Shown here: positions 62,716-64,000 of the stretch, one piece after another | Numbering within the stretch: the first letter of the stretch is position 1 | Layout of the letters: each line of letters starts with the position of its first letter | DNA from: Spirochaetota bacterium | GTDB taxonomy: Bacteria; Spirochaetota; UBA4802; JAFGJZ01 | Assembly: GCA_027858855.1 (NCBI GenBank) | Contig: JAQIBV010000023.1 | Span: forward strand, 1 to 64,000 | Length of the DNA stretch: 64,000 bases | Direction: 5' to 3' | Made by a program: the position numbers and the translations under genes | The notes under the pieces: model-generated | What the model was told of the DNA's origin: nothing | The model's input: only the letters and a program-made list of their open reading frames with translations | Database searches by the model: none

Positions 62716-62910
62716 TCACTGCGGAACTCTTGCCAGCTGTACTTCAGAAGCTGCACCAAACGGTATACCACCTTGTTTTAAAAAGATATAGGAATGTGCT
62801 TATTCATATGTTTTAGCTCTGTTAGACTTTTTTGTTATTGTAATTAATTTTGATGTGAGGAATATTAGGGTTGAGAAGTAATACTGCGTATAATATTCTC
62901 ATTCATCCGT

Positions 62911-62932
62911 TTATACGCCATATGGCGTATAA
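62911..62932. repeat. 22-bp perfect palindrome upstream of the cassette
   Basis: A perfectly self-complementary 22-base stretch, with the half TTATACGCCAT followed by its exact complement. It ends seven bases before the GTTAGGTG cassette boundary at 62939. It could be an operator for the lipoprotein gene or part of a degenerate recombination site. A partial copy, GCGTATAAT, is at 62886-62894. Confidence 0.7.
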
Positions 62933-62939
62933 TCTTAAG

Positions 62940-63541
62940 TTAGGTGTAATTGAGGACAATAAATGAAAAAGAATAAGTTAATTTTAATAATCGTTTTAAT
63001 CTCTATTTTTATGGTTTCATGTAAAGATAAAACCAACAAACTTATTTTCCCTTTTCAACTTCTTGAATTTGATAATAACTACTACACTATTGTAAATATA
63101 GTTAATGAACCAGGATCTTATCCTGGTATATTCATTTTAAATGATCAATCAAAAATTAAGCAGCTTTGCGATAGTGCCTATATTGTTGACCTTGAAAAAT
63201 ATCATTACACAACACCACAATGCAAATTAATTATATATAAAAACAATACGTTGCACTCAAGTATACTCTATAATAGTAGTAAGGATATTAACTTCCAGGG
63301 GTATGAATCATTGTTTATTCAGGTTGACTTTCCTATTGAATATTTCACTGATAAGTTACCAGAAGGTATTGTACGATGACAACCTCAACTACACCTAACA
63401 GAGAATGTCCGGCTCCGCTTCGCTCCGACCAAAATTGCACTTTTGTCAAACAACTTGCTATGGTAGAATTGCAGGGAGAAGAGCCGCAAGTGGTTCGCCA
63501 AATCCCTTCGGGACCGTGCAACTTCGGACATTCTCGGAACG
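62940..63541 (+). mobile_element. integron-like gene cassette
   Basis: The unit begins at TTAGGTG (62940) and ends at the G of AAC|GTTAG (63541). It carries one short-leader gene (62963-63379) in the expected orientation, with an attC-like palindrome behind it. The first bases (GTTAGGTGTAATTGAGG, 62939-62955) are complementary to CCTCAACTACACCTAAC (63383-63399) with one mismatch, as needed for a circular cassette whose R' and R'' sites pair. A second unit begins immediately after. No complete attC is visible upstream and no integrase is in the window. Confidence 0.7.
62963..63379 (+). CDS. cassette-borne lipoprotein
   Basis: A 138-residue lipoprotein: signal peptide with lipobox MVSC (Cys20), then a small unassigned fold with many Tyr and Asn (FDNNYYTIVNIVNEPGSYPG). 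The ribosome site is GAGGA at 62952-62956. It is the only gene of the integron-like cassette and begins 23 bases after the cassette boundary, a normal distance. No family is recognised. Its function is unknown. Confidence 0.8.
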   Translation: MKKNKLILIIVLISIFMVSCKDKTNKLIFPFQLLEFDNNYYTIVNIVNEPGSYPGIFILNDQSKIKQLCDSAYIVDLEKYHYTTPQCKLIIYKNNTLHSSILYNSSKDINFQGYESLFIQVDFPIEYFTDKLPEGIVR

Positions 63542-63548
63542 TTAGATG
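63392..63548 (+). other. attC-like recombination site
   Basis: R'' CACCTAAC (63392-63399), one base, then GAGAATGTCCG (63401-63411); at the other end CGGACATTCTC (63525-63535), GGAAC, and R' GTTAGATG (63541-63548). The 11-base L''/L' arms match perfectly. Inner parts also pair imperfectly (CAACTTGC with GCAAGTGGTT). The overall 157 bases are at the long end for attC, and the folded-strand asymmetry with unpaired bases is as expected. This is the key evidence for a cassette. Confidence 0.75.
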
Positions 63549-63617
63549 ACATTGCTTTGAAATCTCACAATTTTCAAGTTTTAATATTAATTCTTCATTC
63601 TTCTACACAAAAATGAC

Positions 63618-63646
63618 TTGACGATTGATAGCAGATATGCTATCTA
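63618..63646 (+). promoter_or_regulatory. promoter with operator palindrome before the PIN gene
   Basis: TTGACG (63618-63623) and TATCTA (63641-63646), spaced 17 bases. GATAGCA GATA TGCTATC (63627-63644) is a perfect 7-bp inverted repeat overlapping the -10 box, as in autoregulated toxin-antitoxin operators. The expected transcription start falls at the ATG (63653), so the mRNA may be leaderless. Confidence 0.65.
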
Positions 63647-63652
63647 ATATTT

Positions 63653-64000
63653 ATGATGATTGTACTAGATACAAATGTATTATATCAGGCTTTACGTGGA
63701 AAAAGTGGGGCGTCTCATTTTATTTTACAATTAATTAGAAACCAAGATATTTCTTTGGCTCTTTCGTTAAAAGTATTCTCTGAATATGAAGATGTTTTAA
63801 AACGCCCTGAAAAACTAAAAGATCTAAAACTTGATTTAGAAGATATTGGGAAAATTCTTCGCTTTCTATCTTATATTTGCAAGCCAATAAGCACTTATTA
63901 TTTATTTAGACCAAATTTACGTGATGAAAAAGATAATATTTTCGTTGAACTTTGTATAAGTAGTAATGCTGAATATTTAATTACAAGCAATGTAAAAGAC
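63653..64000 (+). CDS. PIN-domain toxin, partial at window edge
   Basis: The first 116 residues of a PIN-fold nuclease (PIN_3/putative toxin family). IVLDTNVLYQALRG carries the first catalytic Asp; SLKVFSEYEDVLKRP carries the conserved Glu, and LRDEKDNIFVELCI and AEYLITSNVKD the later acidic residues. Such toxins cut RNA. No ribosome site is seen before the ATG, in line with a leaderless start. The partner antitoxin, if any, lies beyond the window. It is the gene of a second cassette-like unit starting at 63542. Confidence 0.85.
   Translation, partial: MMIVLDTNVLYQALRGKSGASHFILQLIRNQDISLALSLKVFSEYEDVLKRPEKLKDLKLDLEDIGKILRFLSYICKPISTYYLFRPNLRDEKDNIFVELCISSNAEYLITSNVKD

Follow-up and report, generated by a model that had tools for sequence, protein, structure and literature searches.

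A tyrosine recombinase lacking the I2 domain very probably runs an integron-like cassette platform, to which two gene cassettes at the end of the window (the whole stretch of 64,000 nucleotides of Spirochaetota DNA analysed here) belong. The gene unit that had been pointed out in a preliminary description of this DNA is a genuine mobile cassette of such an integron-like system, and part of an array. The recombinase, the palindromic attI, co-directional single-gene cassettes with foldable attC, and cassettes common to different genomes and bounded at GTT are read in the sequences themselves, from which we infer folding, strand choice and chemistry.

Gene cassettes of the window and platforms of its genome

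The first cassette (62939–63540, plus strand, as are all parts described next) extends from the first GTT to the base preceding the next GTT. Its start arm, R' with extension (GTTAGGTGTAATTGAGG, 62939–62955), and its end arm, R'' with extension (CCTCAACTACACCTAAC, 63383–63399), are inverted complements in 16 of 17 positions, the sole mismatch being at offset 11, where A at 62949 stands opposite C at 63389. The gene between them (62963–63379) codes for a protein of 138 aa with a signal peptide and a lipobox, FMVSC, read from the sequence; no family assignment was found for this lipoprotein. In its array form, the attC of the cassette (63392–63548) is comprised of R'' (CACCTAAC), a 1-nt spacer at 63400, L'' (GAGAATGTCCG, 63401–63411), a variable loop, L' (CGGACATTCTC, 63525–63535), the 5-nt spacer GGAAC (63536–63540) and R' of the second cassette (GTTAGATG). 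L'' and L' pair perfectly over all 11 bases. An Rfam scan of the attC region gave no match. These observations bear out the preliminary description with regard to the 17-base inverted pairing with one mismatch, the perfect 11-base L''/L' arms and the lipoprotein of no known family. The unit was listed there under 62939–63548; AAC at 63538–63540 is directly followed by GTTAGATG from 63541, so the cassette itself ends at 63540, and bases 63541–63548 already belong to the cassette that follows.

The second cassette (63541–64000 in the window, plus strand) continues beyond the window; its R'' ends at contig position 64367, after which an attC-like stretch leads to the next GTT, in GTTATGTG, at contig position 64561. 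The cargo is a PIN/RHH toxin–antitoxin pair, comprised of a PIN-family toxin gene (63653–64000, plus strand) and its ribbon-helix-helix partner (contig 64086–64346). The ends of this cassette pair at offsets 1–10 and 12–14, and A is opposite C at offset 11. A scan for such start/end pairs throughout the window and the contig end detected two, which are cassettes 1 and 2, and none on the opposite strand, with 0.05 expected per shuffled window.

An attI-like site (62882–62938, plus strand) abuts the start of cassette 1 and includes a 20-base palindrome (TATACGCCATATGGCGTATA, 62912–62931). It shares 91% identity over 65 bp with the stretch between a recombinase gene and the first cassette on another contig of the same genome, C25. 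No recombinase gene was found in the window 5' of this site, and the attI copy stands alone. C25 carries, on one strand and in this order, a tyrosine recombinase gene, attI, a higBA cassette and attC. A 162-bp copy of the window attC, 94% identical, is located there (C25:161–322). In the C25 cassette, end pairing extends over 25 bases and is broken twice, including at offset 11. On contig C26, a second I2-less recombinase is split between two reading frames (minus strand, 636–302) and followed by an attI-like region and the cassette start GTTAGATG. The platform is complete on C25, has a broken recombinase on C26, and is represented in the window by attI and two cassettes without a recombinase.

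The remaining Phage_integrase genes of the genome are XerC and XerD only, and a search for canonical IntI in this genome found none. The reading as an integron cassette is upheld by the array, the attI-like site and the complete platform in the genome. It fails for an ordinary integron, as the recombinase is without the IntI insertion, canonical IntI is absent, and the perfect 11-bp L stem of the window has none of the extrahelical bases that were to be checked.

Long end pairing and the L stem

To compare cassettes, their limits were set by attC detection independent of the long pairing, with the second cassette of the window and two cassettes of locus L022 added by hand. In 27 non-redundant cassettes, mostly from the window's phylum, starts pair with their own ends in 85–100% of cases at offsets 1–9, in 63% at offset 10, in none at offset 11, and again in 70–93% at offsets 12–18. 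At offsets 12–18 of the same set, pairing drops to 24–48% with the ends of other cassettes, and to 12–36% with the start of the cassette that follows. Among 60 canonical cassettes from the window's phylum, pairing reaches no further than offset 8, and 34 Bacteroidota cassettes pair with their own ends at offsets 1–10 and 12–15. Matches at offsets 12–18 amount to 152 in the set of 27 (61.5 ± 7.2 with permuted ends) and to 122 in the Bacteroidota set (67.2 ± 6.3), and in both cases 0 of 20,000 permutations were as good. The 60 canonical cassettes, with 114 matches against 107.7 ± 7.5 (4363/20,000), do not differ significantly from permuted ends. A covariation score, calculated as pair count on 26 joints, was 0.726, compared to 0.171 ± 0.020 for shuffled and 0.11–0.15 for slid sequences.

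Offset 11 has A opposite C in 49 of 61 cassettes and a Watson-Crick pair in only one. This A.C on the top strand corresponds to a G.T wobble on the bottom strand. Pairing of the first 15–18 bases of each cassette with its own end, offset 11 excepted, is the diagnostic signature of the I2-less class. The end pairing of 17 bp that had been called longer than usual is real, and it turns out to be a feature of the whole class. The comparison with Treponema denticola made at the same time could not be maintained, since canonical IntI arrays of the window's phylum with short, Treponema-like attC have an end pairing of only about 8 bases. Within one family of the phylum (f24), we found IntI arrays whose short attC resemble those of T. 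denticola, which are 63–68 bp long (PMC3607928).

The right arm of the L stem carries a bulge in 79 of 85 canonical sites. There is no such bulge in 29/40 and 47/81 I2-less sites, in which spacers of 1 and 5 nt are the commonest. The regular extrahelical base is missing from the L stem of I2-less sites.

Recombinases without I2 and cassettes beside them

The C25 recombinase passes NF040815; its match to TIGR02249 is split in two around the I2 region and scores 221 bits against the cut-off of 265. The alignment columns around I2 (31 + 10) are present in 20 IntI and absent from all 83 aligned homologues. Where the two arginine motifs could be matched, they are spaced by 85–90 residues in I2-less enzymes, 127 in IntI and 89–91 in Xer. 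IntI make up one clade in the tree, and Xer another, with support of 100/99. We rejected the C25 recombinase as a member of the XerC/XerD dimer-resolution enzymes because Xer are a separate clade and the genome has its own XerC and XerD. IntI are placed among or beside I2-less enzymes, being drawn within the I2-less group, which also takes in the tet(X3) enzyme and the rAID recombinase of Bacteroides ovatus described below. Nesting of IntI inside I2-less recombinases as a firm claim is weakened by the AU test, which does not reject a single I2-less clade (p 0.385) and thus leaves the order of events undecided.

According to published work (PMC7790495), capture and recombination of cassettes require the I2 domain, which no protein other than IntI is said to have. 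In the available text of PMC8138268, the IntI insertion is regarded as essential for integron function, while it is not conserved throughout an “integron-like subgroup” of tyrosine recombinases, and no cassette arrays are reported there for subgroup members without it. This subgroup, together with NCBIfam NF040815, represents the same sequence class as I2-less recombinases. Cassette movement without I2, deduced here from sequence, goes against the published view that the insertion is needed (PMC7790495, PMC8138268).

In a survey of fragmented assemblies, the window's phylum has close homologues of the I2-less recombinase in 37 of 393 genomes, and canonical IntI in 51 of 393. Among sampled Bacteroidota genomes, I2-less homologues are carried by 70 of 393, in contrast to the view of Bacteroidota as nearly free of integrons (PMC9024848). 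Typically, the recombinase stop codon is followed by a stretch of palindromic repeats and then by GTT[A/G], with attI and cassette arrays; attI adjoins the recombinase gene on C25 and at most homologous loci, unlike the lone copy in the window. Several contigs end exactly at attI/GTT[A/G], as repeats would cause. Searching by the pairing signature only, we disclosed 133 distinct cassettes in 505 kb located 3' of I2-less recombinases, and 0 in shuffles. No signature cassettes were found in 137 kb on the 5' side of these recombinases, in 589 kb around canonical IntI (strands counted separately) or in 108 kb surrounding Xer genes. Among the 60 loci where 1.5 kb or more lies 3' of the recombinase, 43 have at least one signature cassette and 17 have none, the number per locus reaching up to 10.

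Some loci show additional features. A hairpin, GCCCG..CGTCCATG..CGGGC, recurs in several genomes from the window's phylum (L014, L079, L087, L090, L093, L096, L110), a short distance downstream of where the first cassette starts. At L108 (G342:C12), an I2-less recombinase is followed on its 3' side by five or more tandem cassettes that have near-identical ends, attC-like sites and a deviating pairing pattern. Repeats at C43:64800–65309 (L009, 800–927 and 1182–1309, minus strand) resemble the template and variable repeats of a diversity-generating retroelement; they directly follow the cassette array and lie beside a gene with formylglycine-enzyme fold and a truncated avd-like gene. Half of the differences between these repeats are at template A. 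No reverse transcriptase was detected near them, and the only one found in that genome is on C53.

A cassette of 1061 bp (97.5% identity) is shared by two genomes, both without canonical IntI, in which it occupies the first position after two unrelated attI; the identity starts at GTT and stops at the next GTT. Further cassettes common to different genomes are 1019 bp (90.8%) and 851 bp (87%) long.

Antibiotic resistance genes were found in comparable units (loci of tet(X2), tet(X3) and blaOXA-347 in NZ_CP123862.1, 18802–20009; NZ_CP054002.1, 3008–4215; NZ_CP045132.1, 4889–6098). Plasmid pWB8 of Sphingobacterium faecium carries tet(X2) as an intact cassette with ends GTTATGTGCC[A]TTTT and AAAA[C]GGCACATAAC and class-type attC on both sides, and the same cassette is present in a Bacteroides fragilis plasmid, between different neighbours. 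In pWB8, blaOXA-347 is located between two class-type sites, with 10 end bases paired. In Acinetobacter plasmids, tet(X3) lies directly 3' of a shortened I2-less recombinase (“xerD” or “tnpF”) and attI, and starts with GTT in GTTATGTGCC; its end has kept the A.C signature at offset 11, offsets 5–7 are unpaired and attC is truncated. In the literature consulted, this unit is described as an ISCR2 module (PMC8635130) rather than as a platform with a cassette. By these ends and sites, tet(X2) is a cassette of the I2-less class, and tet(X3) and blaOXA-347 share its main features.

Proposed mechanism, its alternatives and known systems

In the mechanism that we propose, a circular cassette would bring its own end and its own start together around attC. 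Because only the circle joins these two, the long R arm would be formed in it, as a full-length arm in place of the short R box. The bottom strand of the circle, the proposed substrate, would fold into a hairpin whose L arm has 11 bp, whose spacer is asymmetric (about 1 and 5 nt) and whose R arm comprises 10 bp, the G.T wobble and 4–7 bp more. At the first G/TT, the recombinase would join this folded site to attI in double-stranded form. Strand polarity would come from the wobble, which would favour the bottom strand since it is A.C on the top strand, and which may stand in for the extrahelical base that I2 reads in canonical integrons. Within an array, R' is always part of the neighbouring cassette; the long arm would then be lost and the site would fold less well. 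For the one cassette compared in this respect, cassette 1 of the window, with mononucleotide shuffles as a reference, the circle form gave −42.4 kcal/mol for the bottom and −34.4 kcal/mol for the top strand, and the array form −32.0 and −23.5 kcal/mol, respectively. Looping out of the whole gene inside an array by end pairing was also considered, and dropped because the L arms of neighbouring attC do not match in the arrays inspected.

Double-stranded recombination of the Xer/dif kind, with end complementarity representing two inverted half-sites and no folded strand, would fit a recombinase that is Xer-like in outline, arms of ordinary half-site length and palindromic half-sites in attI. However, double-stranded sites would need neither own-end pairing nor a match of L'' and L' within the site, and we observe both: offsets 12–18 pair specifically with their own end, with compensatory changes, and L'' matches L' within each site even though the sequences differ between sites. 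A role of one strand is also indicated by the asymmetry of the spacers and by the polarity of A.C at offset 11, and we regard this explanation as unlikely. Much lower is the probability of ordinary integron cassettes, moved by canonical IntI in trans or by one since lost, with the adjoining I2-less recombinase being unrelated. The attC plan R''-L''-L'-R' is indeed common, and a few genomes have both systems (4/40 tested genomes with I2-less systems), but canonical IntI is absent from the other 36, canonical IntI loci never contain signature cassettes, which lie 3' of I2-less recombinases, and attC beside canonical IntI are bulged (79/85) and pair over 8 bases.

Hardly credible, finally, is action of the end complementarity in RNA, as a stem between 5' and 3' UTR acting on translation or decay, recombination being secondary. 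In the cassettes of the window and of C25, the stem does extend in the direction of the start codon and its ribosome-binding site; against this, pairing is anchored on GTT/AAC and has its fixed offset-11 mismatch regardless of the gene, and in the transcript-sense strand A.C forms no pair.

Seen as platforms run by the I2-less recombinase, these loci can be compared with known systems. In “reverse” Treponema integrons, cassettes are on the 3' side, as in I2-less platforms. Canonical integrons, for example the chromosomal ones of Treponema (PMC3607928), share with them a recombinase, attI, arrays of co-directional, mobile single-gene cassettes, and R''-L''-L'-R' attC with complementary R''/R' and L''/L' boxes and the GTT/AAC core. 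I2-less platforms differ in the absence of IntI with I2 or additional domain and of a regular extrahelical base in the L stem, in asymmetric spacers, and in end pairing over 15–18 offsets, with offset 11 unpaired or wobble, instead of about 8 bp.

The rAID clusters of gut Bacteroidales, as presented in the available text of PMC12247911, are similar in having a tyrosine recombinase followed by co-oriented small genes with conserved intergenic motifs, and dissimilar in carrying orphan immunity genes only and short intergenic sites; cassette genes described here code for a lipoprotein, PIN/RHH and higBA. We observed an rAID-type array on the Bacteroides ovatus plasmid NZ_CP081918.1 (7983–17059), with a recombinase of the I2-less group, immunity genes and short intergenic palindromic sites, and found no signature end pairing in it. 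The rAID-type array is likely a specialised branch of the I2-less system.

I2-less platforms might even be ancestral integrons, a tentative suggestion that we consider less than probable. Capture through folded attC would then predate I2, with strand choice by the invariant G.T wobble in the full-length R arm, and IntI would be an offshoot of this group that acquired I2, with a shorter R arm in its sites and strand choice handed over to the extrahelical base. Natural I2-less platforms make integron evolution and the role of I2 directly testable. Finders relying on IntI and canonical attC may miss these platforms. In clinical Chryseobacterium with tetX and blaOXA-347, whose genomes are outside the present analysis, IntegronFinder reported no integrons (PMC12382657). 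The occurrence of tet(X2) as an intact cassette, and of tet(X3) after attI of the I2-less kind, would explain how tet(X), a tigecycline-resistance gene, was packaged for spread.
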